58,916 nucleotides of DNA from a virus: positions 1 through 58,916 of IMG/VR virus record IMGVR_UViG_3300031227_000045. One strand, written 5' to 3'. Made by a program: the position numbers and the translations under genes. The notes under the pieces are model-generated. The model saw only the letters and a program-made list of their open reading frames with translations, had not been told where the DNA came from and made no database searches. Within the stretch, counting starts at the first letter, position 1, and every line of letters starts with the position of its first letter. Below are positions 7,846-58,916 of the stretch, one piece after another.

Positions 7846-7848
7846 TTG

Positions 7849-8205: not shown

Positions 8206-8237
8206 CCCACACTCTCTCAGATTTCGTTCATTTAAAA

Positions 8238-8266
8238 GGGTGGTACTCTCGGGTGCCACCCTTTTT
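8238..8266. terminator. Bidirectional rho-independent terminator
   Basis: A hairpin GGGTGGTAC / GTGCCACCC (with a G-T pair) is flanked by AAAA on the left and TTTTT on the right, so it can end transcripts from both sides. It lies exactly between the converging plus-strand cassette (ending 8205) and the minus-strand late operon (ending 8271). Confidence 0.85.
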
Positions 8267-8270
8267 CTAT

Positions 8271-9104: not shown

Positions 9105-9835
9105 AAATGAACACCTAGATTGGTTGTTCCACCAAAGAAATAAACACCGGCTACGCCAGTAAATTGACCATCTTTATAAGATGCACTTGAACCAACACCA
9201 ACAGGATTGGGTGGAGACCATACAAAATTTGTAATTTGTTCAATAGGAACTTGTGAATTAGTACTAGCTATTTTGATATCTTTATCTCTACTGGTTATAC
9301 CAAGAGGAAAAGAGTTTAGTATATTTGTTTCTTGGGTTATGGGAGATTCCCATAACAACTCACCGTTGTGATACAAATCTAATCTTATTTCTTTTTCCCA
9401 TTCATATGTACCATCTGCTACTACCACATAACGAGCTTCTAATTGGCGCATTATCACAGATACCCAACTACCCACTGCGCCAAACCACACATCTACTAGT
9501 ATAGTTCCTTCTATCCATTGACTGTCAAAAAAGGCATAATTACTGTCATCTAAACCACATAGTCCTTCTTGAATGTCTTGTGTTTGATGTAACATAAAAC
9601 GCCCTTGGGTAACATACCAATTTAATTGTGGATAATTAGTTGGTAAACCAGATACCTTGGGATTAACCAAACAACATTCTTTATTGATGGGGCGGTTATG
9701 TAAAGATGTACCAAAGTCATCCATAAAATAATCAAACGCATGTTTAAACTCATGTCGTCCAAACATAATGCGCGCCTTAGTCGTTAATAATTTCGTTCTG
9801 TTTTTCTTAAGTTCCCCTATTACAATATCTGTCAT
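9101..9835 (-). CDS. Tail-tip-region protein, unknown
   Basis: A 244-residue protein I cannot name. It is rich in Trp, Gly and beta-strand patterns (GAVGSWVSVIMRQLEARYVV; KEIRLDLYHNGELLWESP), suggesting a beta-sandwich structural protein. It sits directly after the 1517-residue tail protein with a four-base ATGA overlap, so it is likely a tail-tip or fibre-associated component. Confidence 0.55.
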   Translation of the reverse strand: MTDIVIGELKKNRTKLLTTKARIMFGRHEFKHAFDYFMDDFGTSLHNRPINKECCLVNPKVSGLPTNYPQLNWYVTQGRFMLHQTQDIQEGLCGLDDSNYAFFDSQWIEGTILVDVWFGAVGSWVSVIMRQLEARYVVVADGTYEWEKEIRLDLYHNGELLWESPITQETNILNSFPLGITSRDKDIKIASTNSQVPIEQITNFVWSPPNPVGVGSSASYKDGQFTGVAGVYFFGGTTNLGVHL

Positions 9836-12800
9836 TTGCGCACCTTTAATAAATGTCCTTCTTCGTCGAATTCCATGTATCCCATTACAGGAATAAGTTC
9901 GTTACCCTTTTTATGTAATCTACTTACAAAGGAAACTACTTTACCTACCATTTTGTCTGCATCATCGCTTGCTAAAGCATCATATCTACCTTCTGGAGTC
10001 GCAAAACTAAGTCTACCAATTTTGTTACTACCAATTATCTCAACGCTCAAAGTGAAATCATCGGAAAATGCTAATGTATCAACTTCTGTTGTTTCGCCAC
10101 CCCATAATATTGCTTGTGGATATGAATCTTCAGCCTTAACGCTAAGTTTAATAGTACACTCATCTACTGATTCAGCATACAATGAGTTTTCATCAATTTG
10201 TATGGTTGATATATAATTATCAGCAACAGCACTACAACCGGTAGCCGCACCAGACGCACACTCAAAGTGTACCCCGGCTTGTACGGTTACTTCTCCGTCT
10301 CCATCATCGTTACCCATTAAACCAAGACCTAGGTTCATCTTAGTAACCCAGTCAACAGTCGCCATAGCAGCCGGTGCTAAACATGTATCATAAGTACTAA
10401 TTTCCATACCTGCACCTATTTCAACTGTACAACAGTCTTCACCAGTTCTAGCAGTTAAGCCATCTCCAAACTTTAAAAGATTAAATGGTATACCTTCTGT
10501 GGTACCAATACCTACAGCAGAATTTATCCAATCAGTACTATTCATAACTTGGGGAGCATGACCTTCTAACACTCTATAATCACATTTATATGGGTCGTAG
10601 TATACAGTTAGTTTTTCACCAGATTTATAACAGTTATTATGTAATTCTACTACGTCAACTATAGGTGTTGAAATTTCATCACCTTCCTCATCATAAAAAT
10701 CTGGGCTTCTACTAGTATCTACCTTAGCTTTTACAGTTTTACCTGAACATAAATCTTCACACAATTCTACCAATAAACGGCGACGTTCTGGAGGTGAAGT
10801 CCATACACCACGTTGTCTGTCCCAACGTAGGTCTAGTGGACCAACTGGCCAAGTGTGAGGTTTAGACATCCAACCATCTAAAAACTTACCTCGTAAAGCT
10901 GTTGTAGTAAATGTACCATTAGATGCATCTTCTGCATCATCCGCAAAATTTGGCATAGGCTTACCATCTAAATCATAACCCCACTGTTGAATTAAAATTG
11001 GACCTTTCCAGGCAAACACCCTATAGTCATTATGATAATCAGCATGATTAGTACCATCAAATCCAGCCCAGGTTGGCATAGATAAACCATCACTTGGAGG
11101 TGAACTTCCCCTACCAACAATATCAACATCGTGACCTATGGTAGTATCACTAGTAGATTTATCTCGTACAACACTACAACGACTAAAACCATCAGGATTA
11201 GAAAATGGGTTTAAGTAGTCTTGGTGAATTTGATTATAATGTTTATCATCCCCACCATAGTAAGGACCACCTTTGTCAGCGCACTCTGCATCACCCTTAT
11301 GTATAGGTGGAGTTGTTCCCTGTGATTGATAATCATCACAATTTCTTATATAGTTACCATAGCGAGGTAAACTACCACCACCATCCATAGACACAGGACG
11401 AATTAATCCGTCTAATGACATCAATGCAGTTTCATCATACTTATCACGACTGATTGTTACACTAGCATCCACCATACTTTCTGCTGTATTAATAGTACGA
11501 CTTAATGCTACACCATTTTTATCAAGAGGAAGTATTTGACCAACAAATACCTCCATAGGTGTTGCTGGTGCTTGTTTTTTAGCACCGAACACACGTCTTC
11601 TACGGTCGGTTTTTTGACCAGCTCTAACAGACATACGTATTTGCTTCAAAAACAAAGCGGCAAACTGCTTTTGTGTTCTAAGTTTACCACGTCCAACTGC
11701 CTTTAATCTCTCAGCATTATATTGACTAAAGCGTCCAAATTTAGGAGTGAATGTAGAGAAACTATATGATGTATTAGTCCCACCGGTTCCTACAGACACA
11801 CTAATACCAGTTACATTTGGTCCATATAAACCAGTCCATGAACCGCCATAGGAAAAGTAACCCCAGTTATATGTAGTAGAACCATCACTCACATGGTCAC
11901 CAGTATAACTATCACTAGTTGATGCTCTATTTTCTATAAGTTGTGTACCAGCACCAAAGAAACCTCCAGCATAAGCACCTAATTCTGCACCCAATGGAAT
12001 TTCAGGATAACCTGGCACATTAGCGCTACCCTTTTCACCATATTGCATGTTGGTTACACCTTCTGCTGACAAAGCCAGACCAGCAACATTCATAGCAGCA
12101 GAACCCCCATATTCCCAAGGGGTTAAACCAGATTCGTGAACAACTCTAACTTTACCTGCTGGACCAGCGTTACCCCAAGGACCATAAACATGGATATTAC
12201 TCTTAACACCAAATGAAATACCATCTGGGTCATTTACCTTATATGGTAATACTACATTCATGGTAACAACACCAGGAAGACTATGCCAATTAGGAATACT
12301 ACTAGCTAAACCAGCAAGTTTATCTAACAACCAGGTCAATCCTCTAACACCTTCAGGAATTTCATTACCAGCATCTAAGTCTTCAAATGATGGAAATTTA
12401 ATAGCCTGTTCTAAAACAACCACTGCTCTTGGATATAACCTATTTGAGTAATCTCCATAAATCCAGTCATCACCTTCTACAGAACTTTTCATATAAAGAA
12501 CACTGTCATAAACAATATAGTTGTTTTCTGACAGATTAGACCAGTTCATAATTTTATCACCAATGGTCATAGAACAGAAAGAATTATACTTACCATCTTC
12601 ACTTCTAAAGAATTGCATATAAGGACTAGAGGTTGGCAATCCTAATATATCTGATTCATCTGTCCAACCTTCGCTTTGAGGAACCTCAGAATTAGTAACT
12701 AAGGTACTTTCTCCATCAACTTGTGCGCAACTATACGGAACTCTAACGGCATACTTTTTACCATAAAAATCTGTAGCAAAGGTGTGTAACCATTCATAAA

Positions 12801-14385
12801 TCTTATCAATGTCTGTACACATTTTTCCCTCATCATCAGCAGTAGCAGTATCAACAGCGCTCTTACGGGTATTTATAAAATCTCTGGCAGCAACAGAGGC
12901 ACCCTTACCAGCCATAAAAGCAAGGACTCCTTTAAAGTTGTGTACGCCACCATTAAAAGCTGAGATTTGGTCGAATAACGCTTTTCCAATATCGTGTCCT
13001 ACACCAGCTTCTCCTGCATCTTCTTGTTCTGCGGCTAACATCTCATAAGATTCCCACTCATCAAATCCCGCAGCAGCAAACAATAGTTCCTTTTCATTAA
13101 TTGTAACTGTTGAGGGCATAGTTAATACTTGAAGTTGATAATTAAGAGCTTCGGTTTCTATATTAAACTCCCACCAACCATCATCATCTTTACAAGAGAC
13201 GATAAAGTTTTTATTACTATCTAATCCCCAATATGGTAAAACGATATCATCTTGGTCACAATTTGGGTCATTAGAACCAGTATTTTGATATATTGTTTCT
13301 TGATTACCACCAAAGTAGAATGTTGATGTAACTTCATTACGTAGTTCAAAACCTGCTGCACTATCTATTAATCCATCAGATGCAGCACCTTGTAATTTTG
13401 TTGATTCTCCATCAATGAATGAAGCAATGGCACCTACGGTGGGTGCTACAACTCTAGATACAGTACGGAATTTAATGAACTTAGCAACACCCGTGGTTGG
13501 GTCTAGTGTTGCATCTTGAACAGGAAGTAGTTCTACATAGTAGTCATAACCTGATTCTTCACAGAGTTGTGATATAGATTCTAATAAACCAACCGACGGT
13601 CCTTGTAGGCGATAATAACTAGGTGGAATAGGAAGTTCACTAATATCAACATAGTAATGATAACCTGGCATTAAACCATAGCCACCAACTGCTGCTGTAT
13701 TAGCATAGGAATAGCCACGATACTGGACAAGACCGCCACCCCAATTACCACCTATAGTACCACCGAAAGAGTTACACAAAATATTAAAACCTCGTGAAAT
13801 TTGATTCCATGCCATACCATTATTATTACGACCAGAACCACCGTAACCACCGGCTAATGTACCAAAGGTAGCACCAGCGAAAGTTGTTAGAGGACATGCT
13901 ATTCCAAAAGATTCCATAAAACCAAATGGGTTATATAGATTGGTAACTACAGAGGTCGCACCGCTATATTCTCCTACAATTAATTGAACACCTTCTAGAA
14001 TTAATTGAGGGCTAACTATTTTGACTGTATATACAGGACGACCACTTGATGAACTATGTGCTTCATAATCTTGTAGTAAACCACTAAATTCAAAGTCGGC
14101 AACCCTAAAGTACATAGGGGCACCAATCATTTCTTTAGTCCCAATAAAGCCTGGGTCAACAGCAGTTGTAGTTTGAGCGTTTAAGTCTTCGTCCCAATAA
14201 TGTTTTGGAGATGCTACTGGAGCAACACACGGGTCTTCTACAAGCTGTACTGTTACTTCAGAAATTTGTTCGTTCCAACCCACTGAGGCCGAAAACGACA
14301 TAACGCTACAACCCATGAACAATGTATGGTTAAATCCACCGTATATATTACTAGGCGAACAGATATTTTTAACTGGTTGAGTCAT
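9832..14385 (-). CDS. Large tail-tip/hub protein (Tal-like position)
   Basis: A 1517-residue protein, the second largest in the window. The N-terminus (NHTLFMGCSVMSFSASVGWN; MYFRVADFEFSGLLQDYEAH; a Tyr-Thr-Val-Lys-Ile strand) looks like a hub or distal-tail domain. The middle is very Gly-, Tyr- and Ser-rich (GSWTGLYGPNVTGISVSVG), the C-terminal third is Cys- and Asp-rich beta structure. No peptidase or glycosidase motif is evident. It is two genes downstream of the tape measure, where siphoviruses place the tail-associated lysin/host-contact protein. Function is inferred from size, order and composition. Confidence 0.6.
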   Translation of the reverse strand: MTQPVKNICSPSNIYGGFNHTLFMGCSVMSFSASVGWNEQISEVTVQLVEDPCVAPVASPKHYWDEDLNAQTTTAVDPGFIGTKEMIGAPMYFRVADFEFSGLLQDYEAHSSSSGRPVYTVKIVSPQLILEGVQLIVGEYSGATSVVTNLYNPFGFMESFGIACPLTTFAGATFGTLAGGYGGSGRNNNGMAWNQISRGFNILCNSFGGTIGGNWGGGLVQYRGYSYANTAAVGGYGLMPGYHYYVDISELPIPPSYYRLQGPSVGLLESISQLCEESGYDYYVELLPVQDATLDPTTGVAKFIKFRTVSRVVAPTVGAIASFIDGESTKLQGAASDGLIDSAAGFELRNEVTSTFYFGGNQETIYQNTGSNDPNCDQDDIVLPYWGLDSNKNFIVSCKDDDGWWEFNIETEALNYQLQVLTMPSTVTINEKELLFAAAGFDEWESYEMLAAEQEDAGEAGVGHDIGKALFDQISAFNGGVHNFKGVLAFMAGKGASVAARDFINTRKSAVDTATADDEGKMCTDIDKIYEWLHTFATDFYGKKYAVRVPYSCAQVDGESTLVTNSEVPQSEGWTDESDILGLPTSSPYMQFFRSEDGKYNSFCSMTIGDKIMNWSNLSENNYIVYDSVLYMKSSVEGDDWIYGDYSNRLYPRAVVVLEQAIKFPSFEDLDAGNEIPEGVRGLTWLLDKLAGLASSIPNWHSLPGVVTMNVVLPYKVNDPDGISFGVKSNIHVYGPWGNAGPAGKVRVVHESGLTPWEYGGSAAMNVAGLALSAEGVTNMQYGEKGSANVPGYPEIPLGAELGAYAGGFFGAGTQLIENRASTSDSYTGDHVSDGSTTYNWGYFSYGGSWTGLYGPNVTGISVSVGTGGTNTSYSFSTFTPKFGRFSQYNAERLKAVGRGKLRTQKQFAALFLKQIRMSVRAGQKTDRRRRVFGAKKQAPATPMEVFVGQILPLDKNGVALSRTINTAESMVDASVTISRDKYDETALMSLDGLIRPVSMDGGGSLPRYGNYIRNCDDYQSQGTTPPIHKGDAECADKGGPYYGGDDKHYNQIHQDYLNPFSNPDGFSRCSVVRDKSTSDTTIGHDVDIVGRGSSPPSDGLSMPTWAGFDGTNHADYHNDYRVFAWKGPILIQQWGYDLDGKPMPNFADDAEDASNGTFTTTALRGKFLDGWMSKPHTWPVGPLDLRWDRQRGVWTSPPERRRLLVELCEDLCSGKTVKAKVDTSRSPDFYDEEGDEISTPIVDVVELHNNCYKSGEKLTVYYDPYKCDYRVLEGHAPQVMNSTDWINSAVGIGTTEGIPFNLLKFGDGLTARTGEDCCTVEIGAGMEISTYDTCLAPAAMATVDWVTKMNLGLGLMGNDDGDGEVTVQAGVHFECASGAATGCSAVADNYISTIQIDENSLYAESVDECTIKLSVKAEDSYPQAILWGGETTEVDTLAFSDDFTLSVEIIGSNKIGRLSFATPEGRYDALASDDADKMVGKVVSFVSRLHKKGNELIPVMGYMEFDEEGHLLKVRK

Positions 14386-14397
14386 CCTCTATTTCCT

Positions 14398-15915
14398 TTA
14401 TGTACATGACATTGAAGTTCCGATAGCATCACCGGTACAGATACCCATAGTCCACGATACATTACGAGAATATCTTCCGGTCTTTGGACTCCACGATTCA
14501 CCATCACTGGTTTTAAAAACTTGGTCATAAGCTGCTGTTAAACTATCTTCTACGGTTTTTAGTAAACATTCTACTGTACTAGTTGGGGCGCCTGCAATAG
14601 CTGCGGCAAAATCAGAACACCCCGTCATTGGTGGCATTACTGCTTCAATACTCACATCTTTAGTTGGTGATGTAACGGTATCAATAGATTGTAATACTGG
14701 TCCCTTAGCTCTACCTAGTACTGCTAGGGATGCAAAAATATCAGTAGGATGAGTTTCATTGATTTGTATTAGTTCTGATAAGGCACCAGAAATATAATTA
14801 CATGGTCTATCATCAAATTCCCATGTATATTTTAATGAACCCTGGGCTAAAGTATGAGCTAAACTTTGTAATAATGGAGTGATATGTAGTGACCTAATGG
14901 CGATACCATTACTGGCTTGTACAGCCCTATTGTATAAACGCCCACTAATAGTAGGCCATGCGCTTACAGCCTCTTCATACTTGGTGGTTGAAATAGTAAA
15001 CTCTCCAGGGTCATCACCATAACTACGAGTTTCTAATCCCTGAATACTACCATCTACAGATACACTTGTTAAATCGCTATCTATATTACTTTTGCGCACA
15101 CTGACATTAAAATCTTCAGTTACATTACCAGGCTGACCAGTAACCGTAGTATCTAAGATAAGCCAGTTTTCAGTAACTTGAAAGTTACCCGCAGTTTCAT
15201 CAACGATTTTACTACGCATGTGGTTAAACCTGGAAAAGCCTCCAGTGGTCATATTCAATACACCGTGACTAGCCATCATGGCGTCACCACCGACACCACC
15301 ATACCAACCTAGGCGACCAGTAACCCACTCTTCTGCCTGTTCCCATGCCTCTTTTATTATGCCCCCAGATTGAAAAACATGCTTACCTGTAGCGGAAATA
15401 TTTCTTGATACACGCATAAGAATACTATTAGCATCCGTAGTACCATTTGCACTCCAAGAAAACTTACTAACATTATCTTGAAATTCAACAGTCCATGAGT
15501 CATTAACATTTTTAACATAGGGCGCTATGGAATCACCATCACTATCTGATAGTTGGGTTTCATCCCACTCTAAAGAAATAGTGAAGGTAGATGTTAAGGT
15601 CCAATTGTTACTTGTTGGCGCAAATGATATATTAACTACCCTAGGATATTTATCAATTAATGTATCACTACCACACTTAACCACAAAATGTTGACCATCA
15701 TCATCCATAGCTGCTCTAAGTTCATCTTGTAAAGTAATGATTTGGTCTAATCCACTATCATTTGCTGGTAGCGGTGTTAGAGTACCGGTTAAAGTTGCGC
15801 TAACAGTAGTACCTAACATAGTATCATCACCACGTTTGTCAAACGGTTCTGATAAAGTTAACATTGGTACTGGAGAAAAACTATATGCTCCATATGTCAT
15901 TGTAGTAGCAGACAT
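14398..15915 (-). CDS. Tail protein downstream of tape measure (Dit-like position)
   Basis: A 505-residue beta-rich protein, Thr- and Ser-rich, with repeated immunoglobulin-like strand patterns (TLTSTFTISLEWDET; SFAPTSNNW). It lies between the tape measure (15 bases upstream) and the giant tail-tip protein (12 bases downstream), the position of the distal tail protein in siphoviruses. No sequence motif confirms the family, and it is longer than most Dit proteins. Confidence 0.55.
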   Translation of the reverse strand: MSATTMTYGAYSFSPVPMLTLSEPFDKRGDDTMLGTTVSATLTGTLTPLPANDSGLDQIITLQDELRAAMDDDGQHFVVKCGSDTLIDKYPRVVNISFAPTSNNWTLTSTFTISLEWDETQLSDSDGDSIAPYVKNVNDSWTVEFQDNVSKFSWSANGTTDANSILMRVSRNISATGKHVFQSGGIIKEAWEQAEEWVTGRLGWYGGVGGDAMMASHGVLNMTTGGFSRFNHMRSKIVDETAGNFQVTENWLILDTTVTGQPGNVTEDFNVSVRKSNIDSDLTSVSVDGSIQGLETRSYGDDPGEFTISTTKYEEAVSAWPTISGRLYNRAVQASNGIAIRSLHITPLLQSLAHTLAQGSLKYTWEFDDRPCNYISGALSELIQINETHPTDIFASLAVLGRAKGPVLQSIDTVTSPTKDVSIEAVMPPMTGCSDFAAAIAGAPTSTVECLLKTVEDSLTAAYDQVFKTSDGESWSPKTGRYSRNVSWTMGICTGDAIGTSMSCT

Positions 15916-15930
15916 TATTGTTCTTTCTTA

Positions 15931-18900
15931 TTAAGCATTATATGTTGGATTTACCCTTAGTTCAGTAGTAAGTGGGTCTATCCATCCCTTTATCTGATTA
16001 TTAACAACCTCTTCCATCTGTGCTTTAAGACCTCCCTCTAAACCACCTAAACCATTAACATTAACATCAAAGGTATGTCTACATACCATTTCAATCTTGT
16101 CAGGTGTTTGTATACTAGCACCTTGACCTGATTCAGGCCCACCTCTTGCAGCATCTAAGAAATCTTTCTCAAATTGTGCCTGTGGCGTCAAAGGAGGTGG
16201 TGCTTGCTGTAAACCAGGTGGAGCAATTGGGTTTTGAGGCAATATATTTTGTTGAGATGGTCTGCTCACAGGAATATTAGAACCCATCATAACAGCATTT
16301 TGTTCAGCTAATCTTTGTTCAACCTTCTCTAAAACATTAGGTAATCTGTCTAGTTTAAATAATGCCTCAGCTAACTGTGTTTGTGACCTTACTAAATTTC
16401 TAGCTTCATCTTGTTTAATACGAGCAGCATCAACTCCTAAATCCATACCTATACGTCCAGCTTCAGTGCCACCCCATCCCTGAGCGTTTAATCGTTCTTT
16501 TCTTGCTTGTTCAGCAGGATTTTCTCTAATACGAGCTTTTACGTGCTCTGGTAAAGGTCTATCTCTTAAATATTCTTCAACCCCTGCTGGACCACTACCC
16601 AATAATTGAAAATTTCTTTGGGCACCAGCTTGAGCAGCAGTACTCATATTATTACGAGGTATACCCAATCTACTAGCATATCCTGCTGTAGTTGCCATAG
16701 CTTTAAAACTACCAATGACATTATTGATTTCATTTTCTCTACCCGGATGTACCGTACTTGCCATAGGTCTTATTTCTTCCATTCCTTTGACAGCTTGAGC
16801 TTGCTGTTTTTCACTCATACCCTTACCACCAGTTTGTATAAATTTACCAATCAGATTTATCTTTTGTTGAAATTTAGCCCTATCTTTAAAACCGCCAGAC
16901 ATTAAATCTAACATACTCTTATTACCCTCATCTCTTCTCTTGTTTATTTGGGCAATTTCTGACTGTATTGTTGATAACCGTACAGTATCTTTAGACAGGG
17001 TATCCAAGGCCATTCTGTTAGCTTGTAATTGGAAATTTACTCCAGCAAGCTCTCTAATCATTATAGCTTCTTCTTTCCACTTACCTTGTTCTGCAAAATA
17101 CTTACCTGCTGCTGTAAGATTAGTCTTTCTACCCTCTAGGCTTTGCATTTTTCGTTCAATTTCTTGCTGATTTGTAGTTCCACCAGCAATACCACCGGAT
17201 TTTGTTAGCCCTCTCATGCGAGCTACAAAAGGTTCAAGTTGCTGAGTGCTAGAAAGAACTATACCAAATGATTTAGATAATTGATTTTGTTTAGTTATAC
17301 CATCACTTTGTATAGCTGCCATCTTAGCGCGTTGTTTAAGCTCTCGTGTAGCTTCTACTGCATAATCAGTTATAAACTTTTCACGCATACCCATTTCTAC
17401 ATCAACATTCTTAGCTAACATATCCTGGGCAGCCTGTTTGGCCGGTGCTACGACCTTTGACAAATTACCCTGATTAAATATATCCTTAAAATCTACATTA
17501 CCCTTATTAGAGTTTACTTGTTTTTTAATATTGGTAATAACAATATCTAAAATTTCTTTTGGTACACTACCACTAAAGTTGTTAGTAATAGCTTCAATAA
17601 CTAAACCCTCTGGATTTTCACCTGCCAACGGTGGACCTCCTGCCTCTATTTTCGCTAATACTTCACCAATAATTTTTTCAAGACCATCTTGTAATCTTTT
17701 ACCACCCTGAGCAATCTCTACGGCTTGGCTCGTACTACCTCCAGGACCACCCATTCTAGTAATTAAACGTTGTGATGCATCATCATATTGACCAGGAGTA
17801 AAAGCTCGTGGATTAGCAAAAACATTTTGTTGACCCGCTGCGAAATTTCTTACACCCACACCCCCACTACGTTGAGCATTCATTAATCTGATATCTTCTG
17901 TTGCACCACCACCAGCGGCGGCTGCTCTATCCATAATAGCAGACATAGTTTCAAAACGAGTAACAAGTGCATCTAAAACTTTGATATTGGCTTGCATTGC
18001 TGTATCTAGTTTCTTACGTAAGGCTGTTTCCTCCAAAATCTTCCCCATATTTTTTTCACCCTCACCTCTCAAGAATCGACCCAATTTAGTCAACTTACCC
18101 AACTCATCTGTTATTTCCCAAGTACCAAAATCTTTAACAGCTTTAGCAATATTGGCTGTCTTTAGACCTAATGCAGCCAAGGCTTTATCCTTTTTTAACC
18201 CTTCTTCTCCTAGGGTAGTCTCGCCACGTAAACTAAGTGCTTTTTCAACAGCTCCAGTTGAACCAGCTAAATTTTGTTTCAGATTTTCCAGACGAAGTGC
18301 ATTACCAGCATCTTTCCTATTTCTAACATTAGTCTGCAAATCTGCTGCGGCATTTTTTCCCATTGTATTAAAATCTAATCCAGTACCACCAAATTTAGTG
18401 ACAATTTTTTTTGCACCTCTGAACATATCCCCTATATAAGTCAAACCCATTTTATCAGGAAGTGTTTCTGGACTTAACGCAGTAGTTACTACCGCTTGAC
18501 CATAAGTAAATCTATCAATATCTTCTGTACCCTCACCTATCTTTTTACCAAACATCGAACCATACGAAGTCTGACTAGCTTCTGAAACAGCCTTTTCTTG
18601 GGTCTGAATAACCTTACCTAAACCACCAAATGAAGTTTGTAATTCCTCTATACTACCTGTTGCTAAAAGTTTTTCAAAAGCCGCGTTTAATGCCTTCGTA
18701 GTTCTTGCTAATATCATTTCTGCTTTAGATGTAGCCCTAGCAGTTCTAGCTCCTTTAATACCTGTTGCCGCTCCCATAATACCACCGGCTACAGCCCCCA
18801 TTGGACCCAAACCTAACATAGATGCCATACCACCAGTACCAATACCACCACCAAAAGCTTGTGTGATTGAACTTTCTCCCTTTGGGTCAAACTGTGAAGC

Positions 18901-31216: not shown

Positions 31217-33352
31217 TTACCTAGATGGTAAGGTCCATGTAGTATTTCTTGTTAGTAAGGTCCATGTTAAACCAGGTATAGTAGAATTGAATCCATACAT
31301 CCAGTCTAATAGTAATATACACGAAATGGCTAGGTTTAGATGGTTATCAAAGGGAATAGTATCGCTTTGAGAAATATCCGCCAGCCAACTTAAATTAAAT
31401 GTATCCGTAGCACTAATAGATGTATAAGCTGCCCCACCCCATCCCAATAATAAATCTTGATTAATGCCCAATTTTGCTAAGTATGCTAAGTTGACCACTT
31501 TTTCACTGCTCAAATTAGTACGCCAATCATAGTTAATAATGTCATTTGTAGATAATTCGCTTCTTAATGAGATTGGAATGATGCTCGTCGGGGATAAACC
31601 ACGTAACCATGATAATGGTACAGTGGTAGAACTTGGGATTAAGTTTAGTATCCAAGACAGTGGCATAGTATTAGAAGTGGCTAAACTACCTCTCCAATCC
31701 AATGGAACAATACTTTCAACATCTAGATTATTTTTCCACCCTAGCAATAAGATGTCTAAAGCACTTACTGAAATGTTGGTTGCTTGCCATCCCAATGTAA
31801 ATATATTTGATAAGGCCAAACTTTGTAACCATGATAACGATGTTATATTTGATAATGCTAAACCCTGTAACCACGATATGGGTATCTCACCAGATAATAC
31901 CAAAGCCCCCAAATATGATAATGGTGTTATGTTTTCTCTGCTCAAATTAGTACGCCAACCATAATTGACAATATCATTTGTAGATAATTCACCCCTTAGT
32001 GAGATTGGAATGATGCTCGTTGGGGATAAGCCGTGTAACCATGATAGTGGTAATTGATGAGAACCAGATATTCCACCTAACCAAGACGATGGTAATTCAG
32101 AAGATGTAGCTAATTGGGTTAACCATTCTAAAGTTAATATACTTGAGGCAGTTATAGGTGTAGTGCTACCATCACCCTTCCAGCCTAAGTTCAGAATATC
32201 TAAAGAAGAAATTCCTTGTAACCAATCTGGATTAGTTATTGTACCACTAGAGATTTTTTGTAACCATTCTAAGTTTAGTATTTGAGACCTGAGTAGGTTT
32301 AGTCTCCAGTCTAAGTTTAAGATACTAGGTAAAGATAAACCTGTTAACCACGATGATGGTAATGTACTAGAATTAGATATATTTTGTAACCATGACAAAG
32401 CTAATATTTTAGATGTTACTAGGTTTAACCTCCAGTCTAGGTCTAAAATATTTGATGGAGATAAATTAACTAATGAATCAATGTTAATAATACTAGATTG
32501 TGACAAACCTTGCAACCACGTTAATGCTAGTATTTGAGATTTGACTAAATTAAGCCTCCAGTCTAAGTTTAAAGCACTTGATAAAGACAAATTAACCTGT
32601 GGGTCAATATCAATAATATCAGATTTAGATAGACCTTGTAACCATGACAAAGCTAATATTTTAGACGTTGCTAATTTTAATCTCCAATCTAAATCAACAA
32701 CATCAGATTTAGACAAACCTTGTAACCATTCTAAAGGTAACAATTGAGATTTAACAAGATTTAATTGCCAGTCTTCATTTAAGATATTATCTAATGATAA
32801 TTGGGTCTTCCAAGAAACATTTATAATAACCCCAGGTGATATGGTAGAATTCCAATCTACATTCATAACACCTAAGTTGGCTATTACTCCACACCATGAA
32901 ATTGGTATTGTACTACTTTGAGCAGCAGTGTACGCAGCAAAAGTTATAAAATCACGCTTGCGTCTTGGATAACTTTCTTTTAGAATTGTGCGAGGATATA
33001 TTCTACCCAGTCTATGGTAACCCATAGCACCGGTAACACTACACTGTCTGTTTTTTTTACCCGATATTACAATAACAGTAGCGGTGCCGGTCAGGCCACT
33101 CGGCACCGCCCCCACGGTAGCCGTGCCGGCATAGGTGACTGGGGCATATTCGCCAGTTATGCCGTCAGCACGAGCCCAGCACAAGCCAACCGTGCCTTTT
33201 ACAACGCTGATGTACCAGCCTCCGAAAATTGAGAAAATCCAGTACGCCCCATCTCCCCGCTCGTATGCCGTCTTGCCGTTGTACGTGCCGTTCGCAGTAT
33301 AGGTACCCGTGGCGTCGGGGTCTAGGGTTCCGGTGACGCGATAGGCAGACAC
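31217..33352 (-). CDS. 14-residue-repeat virion protein with GC-rich N-terminal domain
   Basis: A 711-residue protein starting at GTG 33352 behind a perfect AGGAGG. Residues 1-98 form a Gly/Tyr/Trp-rich domain (TGTYTANGTYNGKTAYERGD) encoded in GC-rich DNA. Residues about 145-700 are roughly 35 tandem 14-residue units of the pattern L-x-x-S-x-I-x-x-L-x-W-L-x-x (for example LSKSDVVDLDWRLK), encoded in AT-rich DNA, so a repetitive beta structure is likely. The sharp base change at about 33050 marks a fusion of unlike parts. It is probably a virion surface or fibre protein; its position is between capsid genes and neck genes. Confidence 0.65.
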   Translation of the reverse strand: MSAYRVTGTLDPDATGTYTANGTYNGKTAYERGDGAYWIFSIFGGWYISVVKGTVGLCWARADGITGEYAPVTYAGTATVGAVPSGLTGTATVIVISGKKNRQCSVTGAMGYHRLGRIYPRTILKESYPRRKRDFITFAAYTAAQSSTIPISWCGVIANLGVMNVDWNSTISPGVIINVSWKTQLSLDNILNEDWQLNLVKSQLLPLEWLQGLSKSDVVDLDWRLKLATSKILALSWLQGLSKSDIIDIDPQVNLSLSSALNLDWRLNLVKSQILALTWLQGLSQSSIINIDSLVNLSPSNILDLDWRLNLVTSKILALSWLQNISNSSTLPSSWLTGLSLPSILNLDWRLNLLRSQILNLEWLQKISSGTITNPDWLQGISSLDILNLGWKGDGSTTPITASSILTLEWLTQLATSSELPSSWLGGISGSHQLPLSWLHGLSPTSIIPISLRGELSTNDIVNYGWRTNLSRENITPLSYLGALVLSGEIPISWLQGLALSNITSLSWLQSLALSNIFTLGWQATNISVSALDILLLGWKNNLDVESIVPLDWRGSLATSNTMPLSWILNLIPSSTTVPLSWLRGLSPTSIIPISLRSELSTNDIINYDWRTNLSSEKVVNLAYLAKLGINQDLLLGWGGAAYTSISATDTFNLSWLADISQSDTIPFDNHLNLAISCILLLDWMYGFNSTIPGLTWTLLTRNTTWTLPSR
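31253..32920 (-). repeat. Tandem 42-bp-period coding repeats
   Basis: The 14-residue units of the 711-residue protein repeat at 42 bases. Neighbouring units are often similar in DNA as well (L-D-W-R-L-N and L-x-W-L-Q-G units alternate), so unequal recombination can change copy number. Some units carry insertions of a few residues (for example near 32150). Confidence 0.75.
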
Positions 33353-33354
33353 AA

Positions 33355-33813
33355 TTAACCTCCTATTTCTCTAAATACGACCTGCATATTTAAAGTGTGC
33401 GATGCACTTGGTGCAGTAAGAAGTCTAAGTCCTACCGCTCCACTTGGACTAATAACTGGGCGCTCTTCGGGAATTGGGTCATAGCGATAACCAGCTAGGT
33501 TATTGAAACCTTGTTGGTCAAAGGCTAAAGTATCATAAGTATCGGGCTCAGTTTCTAAGTGGGCGGTTGCGGTAACCGTACTAGCCACATCGCCGTTTTC
33601 ATGTTTTTGGGGCGTGACTTCAGTACCACTGGGGGCACCAATAGAATTAACACGATATAGTCCACAGTGAAGTTGTTCACTGGTATCTACATCTTGATTT
33701 GTTATTGATGCGCCAAGAATCTCCAAAGCCATATCTGATGGTACTTCTAGTAACATCAAAGTTTCTACACCTGTAACGGCGATATCATGTTCAGCCGTAT
33801 ATACACCTCTCAT
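33355..33813 (-). CDS. Virion protein, beta-rich
   Basis: A 152-residue beta-rich protein with the opening MRGVYTAEHDIAVTGVETLM and a late SHTLNMQVVFREIGG. No enzyme motif. It is normal AT-rich DNA, flanked on both sides by GC-rich DNA, and stops two bases before the repeat-protein start. Probably a small capsid or fibre part. Confidence 0.55.
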   Translation of the reverse strand: MRGVYTAEHDIAVTGVETLMLLEVPSDMALEILGASITNQDVDTSEQLHCGLYRVNSIGAPSGTEVTPQKHENGDVASTVTATAHLETEPDTYDTLAFDQQGFNNLAGYRYDPIPEERPVISPSGAVGLRLLTAPSASHTLNMQVVFREIGG

Positions 33814-33816
33814 TAT

Positions 33817-34983
33817 TTATCTCCGATATATTGATTTACGTCTTTTTTGAAAAATAGCAATCAGGTAGGCAGGAGCCACCGCCGCCACCGTGTACGTCGC
33901 GTAGATCGACCAGAGATTGGTACTATCGGCACTCCAACCCCATCCGGGGAAGGTACTGGGAAACGAGTAGCCGCAGGGGTATGTCGCTGTTGCGGACCGC
34001 CCCCACTTCCGTGAGGCTCCGCCCGTGTCATAGCCAATCCCGATCGCAGGCCATTCGTGGTTGAATCCCAGGTAATGCGTGCCCGGGCTAAATGCACCAC
34101 CGCTCTCGATGTTCTGTGTCCACAAACTTACGTAATTGATAATTACTTCCCACTCGTTAGATTGCCCCTTGAGAGCATCTGGCGTGGTAGAGGTACCATC
34201 ATAGCAGCAGAAACGTCCCGCGATTGTTGAATCACTGTCTCGGCCCATGTAGGCGGACAAACTGGTTATCGTTCCACCTACGCCAACATCACCGATGCAA
34301 AACAGCCAGACATAATTTCTTGTCAGGTTGCCATATTTGGACGCACCATGCGACGTGTACCCGAACGTCGGATCGACGACGACCGGGTACGCCGACTTGG
34401 CCAGCGTCTTGAGCCACTTAACTAGCCCCGGCACCACGACCAGCCGCCCAAAGTGCCCGTGCTGCTGAACCTGGAGCCTAAACCACTTCACCTCGCCGGC
34501 TGCCGTCTCGGCCCTGGCCGCCGGGATGTGCCCGATCTTGCAGCCCGTCCCGTCGAATACGGCGTAGCTGCCAACACACCAATCGGGGCGGACGCAGCCC
34601 TTGGCGACCTCCTCCGCGGTCAAGGCCGGCTGATAGTGAAGTTGGCAGCCGGCCGGCAGTTCCAGTTGTGAGCGGTACTGGCCGAACTTCGGTACGCCGT
34701 CGAAAATCACCGTCTCTTTGAACCCGCCGCCCTCGGACGGGAAGCCGGGATAAAGCTTTTCGATGTCGGTCGCGTGCTCCCATTGCAAGAGCGTCTTGGT
34801 GTCCAGGGCGAACTCCCGACCACGGTCCAGCGGCCGATTGTGCGTCAAGCTGCCGTCGACGAACCGCTTCGTAACCGGCACACCCCAGCAATCCAACAGT
34901 GCCGTAGGTGTAGAGGCGATGCGGTCGATGGTCCGCGTGGACCACCGTTTCGACTCCCATCGTGCTGTCGTGCAAAACGCCAT
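33817..34983 (-). CDS. GC-rich cargo protein, unknown structural
   Basis: A 388-residue protein in GC-rich DNA except for its last 15 or so residues. The N-terminal half is mixed alpha/beta (KETVIFDGVPKFGQYRSQLE), the middle has PVVVDPTFGYTSHGASKYGN, and the C-terminal half is a beta-rich Trp/Gly domain (RFCCYDGTSTTPDALKGQSN). The mature C-terminus ends in basic FQKRRKSIYRR in AT-rich bases. It starts at ATG 34983, which overlaps the upstream stop by one base. It belongs to an imported block with the two small genes upstream. No function is assigned. Confidence 0.6.
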   Translation of the reverse strand: MAFCTTARWESKRWSTRTIDRIASTPTALLDCWGVPVTKRFVDGSLTHNRPLDRGREFALDTKTLLQWEHATDIEKLYPGFPSEGGGFKETVIFDGVPKFGQYRSQLELPAGCQLHYQPALTAEEVAKGCVRPDWCVGSYAVFDGTGCKIGHIPAARAETAAGEVKWFRLQVQQHGHFGRLVVVPGLVKWLKTLAKSAYPVVVDPTFGYTSHGASKYGNLTRNYVWLFCIGDVGVGGTITSLSAYMGRDSDSTIAGRFCCYDGTSTTPDALKGQSNEWEVIINYVSLWTQNIESGGAFSPGTHYLGFNHEWPAIGIGYDTGGASRKWGRSATATYPCGYSFPSTFPGWGWSADSTNLWSIYATYTVAAVAPAYLIAIFQKRRKSIYRR

Positions 34984-35165
34984 TAGGCTGCCATTGGGTC
35001 TTTGAAAAACGGGCCGCCGCCGCCGAGGCCGTTGAGGCTGCCGCTTTGGCGGAAGAGTCCGCCTGCCACCGGCCCCGCCACCTTCGGCGTCAGCGCGTCG
35101 AGCTTGTCCACGAGGGCATCGGCATCTTTGAGCCTCGCCCGCTCTTGTGTCAGGTCTCTTGGCAT
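34983..35165 (-). CDS. Small GC-rich protein
   Basis: A 60-residue protein with a charged helix (DLTQERARLKDADALVDKLD) and a Gly-rich end. It begins four bases after the stop of the 32-residue gene and overlaps the next start, so it is part of the same GC-rich set. The ribosome site is the weak AGGGAAA run. Unknown. Confidence 0.55.
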   Translation of the reverse strand: MPRDLTQERARLKDADALVDKLDALTPKVAGPVAGGLFRQSGSLNGLGGGGPFFKDPMAA

Positions 35166-35169
35166 TTCC

Positions 35170-35268
35170 CTATCCTTTCATTGCTGCGAATACCACGCGG
35201 GTGTTGTACATCCGCACCTGTTTTTCGTCGACAGTCGGCTCGATGATGGTTTGAATTTGATTTGCCAT
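35170..35268 (-). CDS. 32-residue peptide at head of GC-rich block
   Basis: ATG 35268 is preceded by AAGGAAATTCTT, a good ribosome site. The product begins MANQIQTIIEPTVDEKQVRM and ends in AAMKG before TAG. No known family. It is the first gene of the GC-rich insertion and lies about 60 bases below a candidate promoter motif, four bases before the 60-residue gene. Confidence 0.55.
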   Translation of the reverse strand: MANQIQTIIEPTVDEKQVRMYNTRVVFAAMKG

Positions 35269-55790: not shown

Positions 55791-55920
55791 AAGTGGCCAT
55801 TTCAATAAATAGGTGGGGGTATTTATGATAAATGAGGCTCACCACTTAGCCTGAACCCCTGCCAGAAATCTTACCTAAAGTACCTACCCTTTTTACATTG
55901 AAAAAACCCCCTGGGTTCAT

Positions 55921-55960
55921 CGGGTACAGCGAGTGTGCTTCGGGTACAGCGAGTGTGCTT
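55921..55960. repeat. Perfect 20-bp tandem duplication
   Basis: CGGGTACAGCGAGTGTGCTT occurs twice head to tail (55921-55940 and 55941-55960), inside a larger GGGTTC / GAACCC stem at 55913-55969. It marks the AT/GC junction and could be a protein-binding site or a trace of insertion. Confidence 0.9.
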
Positions 55961-56057
55961 CGGGGAACCCCTTGACAATCCCCTCAATCTACTGTATGTC
56001 AACCATGCAAACCGGCACCGATTATCCCCCTCGAATAGAAAATAAAGTATTTTCAAT

Positions 56058-56092
56058 CGACGTAACCTATTGCTATCAAAGGGATTACATCG
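56058..56092. repeat. Hairpin repeat R, copy 1
   Basis: CGACGTAACC pairs with GG-x-x-TTACATCG around loop TATTGCTATCAAA. The GCTATCAAAGG core recurs at 57352 and, inverted, at 58890, with a degenerate stem copy at 57702. Role unknown. Confidence 0.6.
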
Positions 56093-56210
56093 GGGGGTGT
56101 GGCCCAATTCACAATGGGTACAATGGGGTATTTTTCGACGTAAATTGTTGGTGTGTAACTACTTAAGTATTACCCCACCTTTGGTGGTAAACTGTAGGGT
56201 AGAGGGACAC

Positions 56211-56351
56211 ATGAAACACAAACAACAACGCCCCGACGGTAGCAAACGGCCCCGACGTAACGGGGAACGGGGTATTGCAAGGCAAAGCTATTATGCAAAG
56301 TATCGGGCAAAAAGGTTTGCGGCCCGATTCTTCCCTTCTGAAAAGGAGTAG
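56211..56351 (+). CDS. Small basic protein
   Basis: A 46-residue, very basic protein (MKHKQQRPDGSKRPRRNGER, then RQSYYAKYRAKRFAARFF). AGAGGG is five bases before ATG 56211. Its charge fits nucleic acid binding. It is the first of the GC-rich small-gene string; its stop is inside the next gene's ribosome site AAGGAG. Confidence 0.55.
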   Translation: MKHKQQRPDGSKRPRRNGERGIARQSYYAKYRAKRFAARFFPSEKE

Positions 56352-56356
56352 CGACA

Positions 56357-56626
56357 ATGGGAGCCCTGCCACTTAGCTTGAAACGTTTCGAGGGAGCGAC
56401 GCCGGGTTGTATCGCGTTCAGCCATAGGGACAAGAACGGCACCGTTACCTACCACAGTTGGAGTCTGAACCATGAGGGGGCCAGGGTATACCTCCGGCGT
56501 GGGGTGCTGGTCGTCAAGGGATACGACTACAATGCCCCCGCCCGCTACGGGTGTGGTTTGGGCGATTGGAGAACCCTTGAGCTAGCCCGCATGTTCACCC
56601 GACATTCTGACATAGTGGTCGGATGA
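56357..56626 (+). CDS. Small GC-rich gene product
   Basis: An 89-residue protein (MGALPLSLKRFEGATPGCIA; DYNAPARYGCGLGDWRTLEL) of unknown family, with mixed beta strands. A strong AAGGAG lies before ATG 56357, and it is followed by the double hairpin at 56637. It is a member of the small-gene string. Confidence 0.6.
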   Translation: MGALPLSLKRFEGATPGCIAFSHRDKNGTVTYHSWSLNHEGARVYLRRGVLVVKGYDYNAPARYGCGLGDWRTLELARMFTRHSDIVVG

Positions 56627-56636
56627 TAACCAGGGG

Positions 56637-56695
56637 CTCCCCTCGCAAGAGGGGAGTCGCCGCCTGCCCCCTCGCTGGAGGGGGTGGGTGGCGGC
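56637..56695 (+). repeat. Double hairpin H, copy 1
   Basis: Stem A CTCCCCTC-GCAA-GAGGGGAG (8 bp, GNRA loop) is followed by stem B GCCGCC...GGCGGC (56659-56695) with inner CCCCCT/AGGGGG. No T run follows, so it is not a standard terminator. The same design is at 56951-57009 and, simpler, at 58231-58275, always between small genes. Confidence 0.8.
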
Positions 56696-56726
56696 TAACT
56701 ACAATCCTCTTTTTTGGAGAGTCGGA

Positions 56727-56939
56727 ATGCATTACAGCCCCTATGAGACAAGTTTGTTTATCGCCATGTTGGACCAAGCACCCATTCGCGTCAACGGATT
56801 CACCCCAGCGAGGGACTGGATTCGTATTATGGCAGTCGTCTTAAAGCTGGAAGTTAAAAAGGACGGCCTTGGTGAGTTAATTGCCACAGTCGAGGACAAC
56901 AAGGGTTGTGTTCTGGTTGTCGAAATAGCCGATGGTTAA
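56727..56939 (+). CDS. Small GC-rich gene product
   Basis: A 70-residue protein beginning MHYSPYETSLFIAMLDQAPI and ending VLVVEIADG, with alternating strand pattern. GGAGAG is 6 bases before ATG 56727, just after hairpin H copy 1. It is followed by H copy 2. Family unknown. Confidence 0.6.
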   Translation: MHYSPYETSLFIAMLDQAPIRVNGFTPARDWIRIMAVVLKLEVKKDGLGELIATVEDNKGCVLVVEIADG

Positions 56940-56950
56940 CCAGCACCAGG

Positions 56951-57009
56951 CTCCCCTTCGTAAGAGGGGGAGTCGCCGCCTGCCCCCTGCTAAGGGGGTA
57001 GACGGCGGC
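56951..57009 (+). repeat. Double hairpin H, copy 2
   Basis: Stem A CTCCCC...GGGGAG (56951-56972, imperfect) and stem B GCCGCC...GGCGGC (56975-57009) with inner CCCCCT-GCTA-AGGGGG. The stems match copy 1 while loops differ, which points to kept RNA structure. Confidence 0.8.
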
Positions 57010-57041
57010 TGAAACCCTTACTTTTACTTGGAGTGGTTACC

Positions 57042-57236
57042 ATGCAAACAATGAATCTCAGCTTGCAAGTGGTTACAAGAGACGGAGAAACGGTCGTCAA
57101 GGCTAGAGTCGGACGTGGTATGTCAGTCATGGAAAAAGACTTCTCGATTGTGGAGTGGAAAAGTCTGGCTAGTGACATTGCACAAGAGATTAGAGAGATT
57201 GAATTGGCACAATGGGCGGAGTGTTTCTGCCCCTAG
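57042..57236 (+). CDS. Small GC-rich gene product
   Basis: A 64-residue protein beginning MQTMNLSLQVVTRDGETVVK, with a helical end (SLASDIAQEIREIELAQW). GGAG lies eight bases upstream of ATG 57042. It is followed by the strong stem at 57246. Unknown function. Confidence 0.6.
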   Translation: MQTMNLSLQVVTRDGETVVKARVGRGMSVMEKDFSIVEWKSLASDIAQEIREIELAQWAECFCP

Positions 57237-57245
57237 GGTAGCGTA

Positions 57246-57271
57246 CCCTCCCCCTCACTTGAGGGGGAGGG
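57246..57271 (+). terminator. Perfect 11-bp stem-loop, terminator-like
   Basis: CCCTCCCCCTC-ACTT-GAGGGGGAGGG is followed by CCTTTTGCTTTT. It could terminate the first four-gene set. The T run is broken, so ending may be partial. Confidence 0.6.
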
Positions 57272-57339
57272 CCTTTTGCTTTTGGTATTCATCGTAAGTT
57301 GTTATTACATAAGGACTTACAACTCGTACTGCGTGACGT

Positions 57340-57373
57340 GACTTAACCTCTTGCTATCAAAGGCTTTACGTCG
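57340..57373. repeat. Hairpin repeat R, copy 2
   Basis: GACTTAACC pairs with GG-x-TTTACGTC (one stem mismatch) around CTCTTGCTATCAAA. The loop is nearly the same as in copy 1. Confidence 0.65.
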
Positions 57374-57462
57374 AATCGTCCTTAAGTGGGGGTTACATAG
57401 AGGGGTGAGTATCCCAGAGTACCCAGCTTATCTATACTACTCAAACAGCACACCTTGCCCAG

Positions 57463-57520
57463 TTGTCCCAGCTTAACTAGCTTCGTCCGCCGGGGGGTAT
57501 GTGCCCCTGCTAGCGAAGTA
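57463..57520. repeat. Repeat S, copy 1
   Basis: Shares TTGTCCCAGCTTAACT, CCGGGGGG and AGCGAA with 58744-58800 over about 57 bases. It can fold as CTAGC / GCTAG with inner GGGG / CCCC. Confidence 0.7.
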
Positions 57521-57795
57521 CCTCTAATTATTTTTTGGAATCCCCATAGGTGGCAACCCCCTCTGAGGTAGTACAAATGGTAAGATGGGTAAGCTGCGCT
57601 AGATAGGTATGTTACTATGGGGTGTTTGGGTACATTAGGTTGACCTACCCCCCCGTACCGGAAACGGAAGTGTCCTTTACACCCGTTTGGGGGGGTGACG
57701 TGACGTAACCCCTTATGGCATAACGACTTACGACTACCCCTCCTATGGGTGGCATAGGCTAACCCTTGACTACCCCTGTATAATACTATAGAGGG

Positions 57796-57837
57796 GTTCG
57801 GGGGAGGCAGGGGGGTGAGTAAACCCCCCACCCGAAC
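57796..57837 (+). promoter_or_regulatory. Nested hairpin in 5' leader
   Basis: GTTCGGG / CCCGAAC encloses GGGGGGT / ACCCCCC. It is 15 bases after TATAAT and ends 15 bases before AGAGGAG of the next gene. It should affect mRNA stability or translation of that gene. Confidence 0.55.
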
Positions 57838-57866
57838 TACGGCACCCCACTAGAGGAGTACTCATT

Positions 57867-58208
57867 ATGGCGGAAACCCAGACCTGGAAGAGTGGGCAAG
57901 CTACGCAAGATACGCAAGCTCCGCGGTTCTGCGGCACTGCGTCGATTAGTCAAGCCATAGAATGTGGCGGGTATGGGAAAACCTGGGGGTTTTGGTACTT
58001 TGGGAAGAAAGACCAAGCCCCGCGATATAGGTGGGCTACGGTCCACCCCCCGACTGGGGACAAGCCCACCCTCGTGAGTGGTAGTCACTTCGTGGGGTAC
58101 GACCCCCACGCGAAAGATAGGAAGACTGGGGCGATTGGGGGGTTTAGGTTCTTCTACTTCGGAAAGATGGACGACCTTAGTCCTGTGGAGGGGTACTTCA
58201 CCCCCTAG
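57867..58208 (+). CDS. Small GC-rich gene product
   Basis: A 113-residue aromatic and Gly-rich protein (TWGFWYFGKKDQAPRYRWAT; GFRFFYFGKMDD), possibly two related W/Y-F-G-K repeats. A perfect AGAGGAG is 8 bases before ATG 57867. It is followed by hairpin H copy 3. No known family. Confidence 0.65.
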   Translation: MAETQTWKSGQATQDTQAPRFCGTASISQAIECGGYGKTWGFWYFGKKDQAPRYRWATVHPPTGDKPTLVSGSHFVGYDPHAKDRKTGAIGGFRFFYFGKMDDLSPVEGYFTP

Positions 58209-58230
58209 ACTGAGTAGTCCAAGTGGGGTG

Positions 58231-58275
58231 CCCCTCGCAAGAGGGGTGCCTCTCCCTGCCCCCCAGAGTAAGGGG
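58231..58275 (+). repeat. Double hairpin H, copy 3
   Basis: Stem A CCCCTC-GCAA-GAGGGG (58231-58246) matches copy 1 exactly in stem core and loop; stem B is the simpler CCCC / GGGG at 58261-58275. Again between two small genes. Confidence 0.7.
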
Positions 58276-58316
58276 TCAAAGAGAGTCAACAACACCCCCA
58301 CAAGAGGAGCATACAG

Positions 58317-58688
58317 ATGTTCAGCAACTCCGAGTTCGCCCAAATTACCGGCATCCCCCAAGATGCCATGGGTGCCCTGCCCCCCTTGGGTGCCCACCTT
58401 TGCAGGGAGCTGTCATTTGCCGAGTTTGCCCTATTTACCATCCCGGTGGTTGAGGTAAACGGGGCAACCCACGACCTCTGGGCTGTTAAGCGACAGTCGG
58501 CAACCCGCATGGGCCTGGATGCTCGCGGGGAAGAGGCAAGCTGGGCAAAAGAGGAAGAACGGAGAAGGAAGGAAAACCTTGCACACTACATCGAGTTGGC
58601 TGAAAAGGGGTTCTGCGACGGTGAGGAAGTCGAGGAACTTGAGGTAAGCCTGACCGACTGTGCCCTTCATAGGAAAGGGGAAGGTTAG
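58317..58688 (+). CDS. Small GC-rich gene product, helical
   Basis: A 123-residue protein. The N-terminal part is hydrophobic and mixed (AQITGIPQDAMGALPPLGAH), the C-terminal half is a charged helix (EEERRRKENLAHYIELAEKG). AGAGGAG is 7 bases before ATG 58317. It is followed by a strong terminator. Family unknown. Confidence 0.65.
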   Translation: MFSNSEFAQITGIPQDAMGALPPLGAHLCRELSFAEFALFTIPVVEVNGATHDLWAVKRQSATRMGLDARGEEASWAKEEERRRKENLAHYIELAEKGFCDGEEVEELEVSLTDCALHRKGEG

Positions 58689-58704
58689 GCTAGTTGGGTA
58701 AGTC

Positions 58705-58728
58705 GCCCCCCGAAAGGGGGGCTTTTTT
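58705..58728 (+). terminator. Strong rho-independent terminator
   Basis: GCCCCCC-GAAA-GGGGGGC (7 bp, GNRA loop) followed by six T. It ends the second small-gene set. Confidence 0.95.
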
Positions 58729-58743
58729 ATGTAGTCATCCTAT

Positions 58744-58800
58744 TTGTCCCAGCTTAACTTGCTTCTTCCACCGGGGGGTGCGCCACCCTGCCAGCGAACT
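58744..58800. repeat. Repeat S, copy 2
   Basis: Second copy of the 57-base repeat at 57463-57520, with changed loop (GGGTGCGCCACCC) that itself is a small hairpin. It precedes the palindrome cluster. Confidence 0.7.
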
Positions 58801-58809
58801 AGGGTGAGC

Positions 58810-58868
58810 ACACTTAGTGAAAATACACTAGGTGTGTTAGCACTACCGTAGTGTAGTAACACTTAGTG
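58810..58868. repeat. Cluster of short palindromes
   Basis: ACACTTAGTG twice (58810-58819 and 58859-58868), ACACTAGGTG (58825-58834) and the perfect 13-bp palindrome CACTACCGTAGTG (58841-58853) lie in 59 bases, and GTTAGCAC occurs twice. It resembles operators or iterons of a replication or partition site. Confidence 0.7.
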
Positions 58869-58889
58869 CGTTAGCACCTTGAGTCGCCA

Positions 58890-58905
58890 TAAGCCCTTTG
58901 ATAGC
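58890..58905 (-). repeat. Hairpin repeat R, copy 4 (inverted)
   Basis: The minus strand reads GCTATCAAAGGGCTTA, the loop core of repeat R, in opposite orientation at the window end. Confidence 0.6.
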
Positions 58906-58916
58906 CTAGACTTAGG

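Follow-up and report, generated by a model that had tools for sequence, protein, structure and literature searches.

What is the function of the double hairpins that recur between small genes at one end of an uncultivated phage contig? The contig is an IMG/VR record of 58,916 bases, classed as linear, i.e. without end repeats, and was analysed at its full length (the window). Its gene content includes terminase, portal, tail, NAMPT and HNH endonuclease genes. A first-pass annotation had proposed that the hairpins are RNA processing or stability elements or, alternatively, boundaries of exchangeable gene cassettes.

Between the early genes of bacteriophage T7, the mRNA is cut at RNase III sites, the hairpin protects the upstream message at its 3' end, and the gene that follows is left with a short leader. 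A substrate of RNase III consists of about two helical turns of double-stranded RNA, or of an upper and a lower stem with an internal loop. The put RNAs of HK022 type are approximately 70 nt long, form two stem-loops, act without a dedicated protein and are located downstream of early promoters (PMC9378689). Their stems rely on bulges and on a G-A contact between the stems (PMC9378689). Moreover, the excerpted account of the SPO1 host-takeover module describes a genome segment with a cluster of small genes, which possess promoters of their own and strong ribosome sites (PMC6873191).

In this study, we describe three homologous double hairpins, E1 to E3, and weigh what they may do. Hereby a dyad module is identified, which is apparently widespread and undescribed.

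Results

The GC-rich end of the contig

The GC content is about 38% in the body of the contig and about 52% in the last 3 kb, beyond the HNH gene, where six small genes form two operon-like units (Table 1). The step is abrupt (35-40% to about 52%, 55800-58916), adjoins the HNH endonuclease gene and may result from acquisition or assembly chimerism. Another GC-rich island, reaching 66%, is located at 33000-35250 and spans two minus-strand ORFs (33355-33813 and 33817-34983), both without a PHROGs match.

As the first-pass annotation had stated, all six small genes lie on the plus strand and have good ribosome sites, of the GGAG/GAGG type. Operon 1 has the order g1-g2-E1-g3-E2-g4-terminator (57246), and operon 2 the order promoter-g5-E3-g6-terminator (58705). 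The hairpins were said to separate the small genes. They do so in the g2-g3, g3-g4 and g5-g6 gaps, but not between g1 and g2, which are 5 nt apart, nor between g4 and g5, where a terminator and other repeats are found. These other repeats include one copy (57458-57520) of a second family of 63 nt with an inner GGGG/CCCC dyad; the other copy, 81% identical, lies beyond the last terminator (58739-58801). The two copies are 1281 apart, which is the same spacing as that of the repeat pair 56059/57340.

The genes g1 and g6 are considered real since they have relatives in other phage contigs, and both are common to a small-gene module of the phage contig G004. Relatives of g1 are found in about five or six other phage contigs (G004, L183 and the four further contigs L208-L211), and the g1-like small basic protein is, as far as these sequences indicate, a widespread unnamed phage family. 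L208-L211 are phage contigs of 30-390 kb that encode the g1-like protein (at 5001) with the pattern DGxKRxRRNG...WYAxxR...RF; the 6-10 kb around this gene contain no array of the dyads described below, and at most one weak site. Relatives of g2 and g5 were searched for and none were found.

Table 1. Coordinates of genes, RNA elements and dyads at the GC-rich end of the window
Feature	Position	Strand	Remarks
11-7-11 dyad	56061..56089	+	degenerate, score 11.7; upstream of g1
11-7-11 dyad	56139..56167	+	score 17.1; upstream of g1
g1	56211..56351	+	46-aa basic protein; relatives 50-62% over 32-36 aa
g2	56357..56626	+	89-aa ORF; GGAG ribosome site
E1 double hairpin	56635..56696	+	stem A GGCUCCCCUC-GCAA-GAGGGGAGUC, then stem B, loop GCUG
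g3 ribosome site GGAG	56716..56719	+	starts 20 nt after E1
g3	56727..56939	+	70-aa ORF
E2 double hairpin	56949..57010	+	stem A 11 bp, GUAA loop; stem B GCCGCC/GGCGGC, 3-nt bulge
g4 ribosome site GGAG	57030..57033	+	starts 20 nt after E2
g4	57042..57236	+	64-aa ORF
Intrinsic-terminator-like hairpin, end of operon 1	57246..57271	+	11 bp, then CCTTTTGCTT
11-7-11 dyad	57293..57321	+	score 29.6
11-7-11 dyad	57342..57370	+	score 19.3; 49 bp from dyad 57293
11-7-11 dyad	57704..57732	+	exact consensus; upstream of g5 promoter
Promoter of operon 2	57766..57789	+	TTGACT...TATAAT-like; by eye, absent from promoter scan list
g5	57867..58208	+	113-aa ORF
E3 double hairpin	58227..58286	+	stem A GCAA loop with compensatory changes; stem B UCUC/GAGA
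g6 ribosome site GGAG	58306..58309	+	starts 20 nt after E3
g6	58317..58688	+	123-aa ORF; relative at 35% within G004 small-gene module
Intrinsic terminator, end of operon 2	58705..58722	+	7 G-C pairs, GAAA loop, T6
11-7-11 dyad	58888..58916	+	score 18.4

Structure and conservation of the double hairpins

The recurrence of double hairpins, noted earlier near 56637, 56951 and 58231, was borne out, all three being on the plus strand. Each element is 60-62 nt long and consists of two abutting stem-loops. Stem A is an uninterrupted helix of 10-11 bp, and in all three elements its GNRA loop is closed by a C-G pair. Stem B comprises 15-19 bp in E1 and 14 bp with a bulge in E2, and is weak in E3 (4+2+4 pairs). 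Predicted minimum free energies are -55.4, -49.8 and -33.4 kcal/mol for E1, E2 and E3, respectively, corresponding to z-scores of -5.4, -5.4 and -2.6 against shuffled sequences; none of 200 shuffles folded equally well for E1 or E2, and five of 200 did for E3. When 1,338 intergenic strands from the window and from the phage loci with dyads were ranked by stability, E1 and E2 took the first two places.

The elements are homologous, with blastn E-values within the region of 9e-11 (E1/E2) and 3e-4 (E1/E3) and with 86% identity between E1 and E2 over 64 columns. Between E1 and E3, four pairs are altered on both sides, the three outer ones in stem B and one in stem A. All 14 tested pairs are kept, which was matched by none of 20,000 shuffled 3' strands. 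This compensatory divergence argues for selection on the pairing. The description of kept stems with changed loops is thus correct for the stems, in E3 by way of the compensatory changes, whereas the loop of stem A differs by one base only (GCAA, GUAA, GCAA). A stem B of the GCCGCC/GGCGGC type, which had been ascribed to all elements, does not extend to E3. Four G-U pairs in E1 and three in E2 are found, which can form in the plus-strand RNA only, and the plus strand of these elements is predicted to be 10-13 kcal/mol more stable than the minus strand; E3 does not have this strand bias (minus strand -34.4, plus strand -32.9).

Position relative to ribosome sites

In all three cases the GGAG of the next gene starts exactly 20 nt after the element (19 nt between), and the start codon follows the element at 30 (E1), 31 (E2) and 30 nt (E3), with unrelated letters in the linker, a spacing of limited statistical weight as it rests on three copies, two of them close. 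On the other side, the interval between the preceding stop codon and the element varies (8, 9 and 18 nt for E1, E2 and E3). The constant downstream and variable upstream distances indicate that the elements are positioned relative to the ribosome site of the next gene.

A U-tract directly after the stem is absent in all three elements, whose tails read AACTACAATCC, GAAACCCTTAC and CAACAACACCC. The first-pass annotation had found two elements lacking a T run and concluded that they are not plain terminators; this applies to E2 and E3, which have none, and the T6 of E1 sits 13 nt past the stem. It is instead the operon ends that carry terminator-like hairpins with T runs (57246, 58705).

Search for the hairpin family in other genomes

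A covariance model (R2) was built from an imperfect alignment of three rows, E1-E3 themselves, so that its scores for these elements are not independent evidence. Over the rest of the 58.9-kb contig, R2 found nothing comparable to E1-E3, and over 43 phage records (the window's own included) and the retrieved loci it found no second genome with a double element. DNA BLAST against INPHARED with the whole region or with E1 alone gave no match. Rfam gave none at the gathering score, the only weak matches being at chance level and outside E1-E3. The terminase-based relatives L045-L047 have no match to the hairpin region. A generic scan for tandem hairpins was too crude, as it missed E1-E3 themselves. 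IMG/VR as a whole was scanned for exact patterns, which diverged relatives could escape. The pattern GGGGNGNCNCYNCCTGCCCC occurred in 42 stretches, none of which was preceded by a GNRA hairpin on inspection, and these occurrences are attributed to chance. The stem A pattern returned nine loci, all of them single hairpins or terminators and none a double element. The top weak covariance match among the dyad-bearing records (G011/L215, E-value 0.003) carries a T run and represents a terminator.

Single GNRA hairpins without a T run stand a few nucleotides before a gene in L186, L188 and L191. They resemble stem A (CCCCUC-GNAA-GAGGGG), but consist of one hairpin only and belong to unrelated, high-GC phages; they are probably convergent. 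In L192-L194 and L215, a GNRA loop on a GC-rich stem is part of a plain terminator. An undescribed system had been suspected, to be checked by covariance model matches beyond this genome; no second genome with the double hairpin emerged from the above searches, and the family is so far private to one contig.

A paired dyad in a small-gene segment of large phages

The g6 relative in G004, a 172-kb contig, led to a dyad of 29 nt composed of CGTAARYSCTT, seven free bases and the inverse (11-7-11). A weight matrix trained without the window detected 975 sites in 1.25 Mb of motif-selected loci versus two in shuffles, and none in 578,585 bases of control loci; the pattern read backwards did not occur in 26 records. 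Among neighbouring sites at most 130 bp apart, 392 are separated by exactly 53 bp, that is five helical turns. The pairs have a GC-rich spacer and are mostly intergenic. In same-strand gaps, a TTGACA/TATAAT-like promoter follows the pair in about half of the cases, its -35 box mostly 20-40 nt past the second dyad. These figures derive from rough predictions of genes and promoters, and of 368 pairs, 98 overlapped a predicted ORF.

In G004 (L057), all 19 sites fall within 12 kb (6075-18326), and clusters in other genomes are similar; the loci with dyads are the window, L057 and L066-L185, and the dyads gather in a single segment of these large uncultivated phages. In the window, six dyads are present, all from 56,061 to the contig end, and the rest of the window has none as strong. 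The window belongs to the module less clearly than the other phages do, since its dyads are degenerate and have spacings of 78 and 49 bp. A dyad copy makes up the final 29 bases, so that the contig ends exactly where the dyad ends. This suggests an assembly break in a repeat, with more of the module beyond.

BLAST of one 116-nt dyad pair against INPHARED gave no match, and a literature search with a dyad 10-mer retrieved only unrelated papers. In L183 (9540-10200), dyad pairs form a noncoding array with units of about 280-330 nt and similar flanks. Dyad arrays are also present in MAG contigs that were assigned to bacteria (Gammaproteobacteria, Planctomycetaceae), L195 and L198 among them, which are possibly mis-binned phage.

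The complementarity of the central 7-mers of partner sites was not above the control, and the 7-mers are only slightly more alike (2.16 versus 1.89 of 7). Tyrosine recombinase PF00589 was over the cut-off in none of 21 dyad-bearing records, which may be fragments. Core sites of a tyrosine recombinase are disfavoured, as there is neither a shared overlap region nor a recombinase over the cut-off. The simplest reading is that a phage regulator would bind the two dyads cooperatively, as operator or activator sites.

Discussion

We tentatively regard E1-E3 as intercistronic RNA processing or stability signals similar to the RNase III sites of T7, a reading to which we assign somewhat less than an even chance. 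The transcript of each element would fold into a pair of adjoining hairpins, first stem A, capped by its GNRA loop, and then stem B. An endonuclease, for instance the RNase III of the host, would cleave within stem B, the long one, whereupon stem A would shield the upstream message at its 3' end and the next gene would retain a short defined leader of about 30-45 nt. A polycistronic mRNA would in this way be divided or trimmed at the element; co-transcription, cleavage, stabilisation and the enzyme are what we infer here. The earlier proposal of RNA processing or stability elements is consistent with the sense-strand pairing in E1 and E2, the compensatory changes, the 20-nt spacing to the Shine-Dalgarno sequence (SD), the lack of an adjacent U-tract and the position inside operon-like units.

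The T7 sites (R0.3, R0.5, R1, R1.1 and R1.3) are likewise hairpins in gaps between small early genes, shortly before the next ribosome site. When folded, R1.1 (GGUCAUUC-GCAA-GAGUGGCC) and R0.3 (UAUC-GCAA-GGUG) both present C(GCAA)G loops, and thereby share with E1-E3 a GNRA loop closed by a C-G pair. At what we take to be the cut positions, four of the five T7 cuts fall 26-34 nt upstream of the start codon that follows, and E1-E3 would provide for a short leader of this type; the analogy is one of layout, not of homology. T7 sites consist of one hairpin with an internal loop, in contrast to the two abutting GC-rich hairpins of E1-E3. The weak stem B of E3 would hardly be a substrate of RNase III. 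Further points against the processing reading are the use of a GNRA loop on a GC-rich stem in the plain terminators mentioned above, the restriction to three copies on one contig, and the roughly equal folding of E3 on the minus strand.

The main rival, which we consider unlikely though worth serious attention, is a translational insulator or ribosome platform that shields the ribosome site of the next gene from upstream pairing and sets a 30-nt leader without any cleavage. It would explain why the spacing follows the SD and start codon instead of the upstream stop, and the predicted accessibility from SD to start is higher with the element than without it (0.53 versus 0.40 for E1, 0.23 versus 0.20 for E2, 0.47 versus 0.41 for E3). 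This gain is small, however, and for g4 not above that given by shuffled elements; moreover, g1, g2 and g5 do without an element. Improbable in our view is put-like antitermination, in which the nascent two-stem RNA would bind RNA polymerase and let it pass the terminators at 57246 and 58705. HK022 put and E1-E3 agree in a length of about 60-70 nt, in two adjacent stem-loops and in their location in a phage operon. Yet the pairing of stem A is perfect, its loop is of the GNRA type, and the stems abut, which departs from the bulged stem I and inter-stem G-A contact of put; besides, the elements immediately precede later operon genes, and their position follows the next SD, for which put has no need, and not a promoter.

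Similarly improbable are weak or decayed intrinsic terminators that would produce a falling gradient of expression along the operon. Strong GC-rich hairpins after stop codons and the T6 near E1 fit such terminators, but no U-tract adjoins any stem, and both operons already end in U-tract terminators. We see just as little prospect for a mobile or recombining repeat (REP/MITE or cassette border), the hairpins having spread as DNA and marking gene joints. The presence of three homologous copies, two of them close, agrees with this; against it stand the single orientation and the fixed SD distance of every copy, the absence of a further copy from the 58.9-kb contig, the absence of a Y1 transposase (PF01797) from the contig and of the attC core words GTTRRRY / RYYYAAC from the three gaps, and the compensatory divergence, which favours selection on pairing. 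The suggestion that the hairpins bound exchangeable cassettes could not be upheld, because the elements lie inside operons and the unit borders consist of a terminator and an 11-7-11 dyad. That units bounded by dyads are themselves exchangeable cassettes of a phage-wide array, moved by a putative recombinase, with the hairpins making the inserted genes separately expressible, seems very improbable.

Like the SPO1 host-takeover module in its excerpted account, the contig end is a small-gene cluster with its own promoters and good ribosome sites in one phage segment; that excerpt mentions neither paired 53-bp dyads nor double hairpins. If the processing reading of E1-E3 is true, an unrelated phage would have reached the solution of T7, in which hairpins at a fixed distance ahead of each gene split one message into several that are tuned separately. 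Of the two findings, the dyad module is the more novel. Hundreds of paired sites with a near-invariant spacing of 53 bp, placed in one segment of many large uncultivated phages, suggest that these phages share a regulator of small genes, possibly for host takeover, and the dyad offers a sequence handle for locating such genes.
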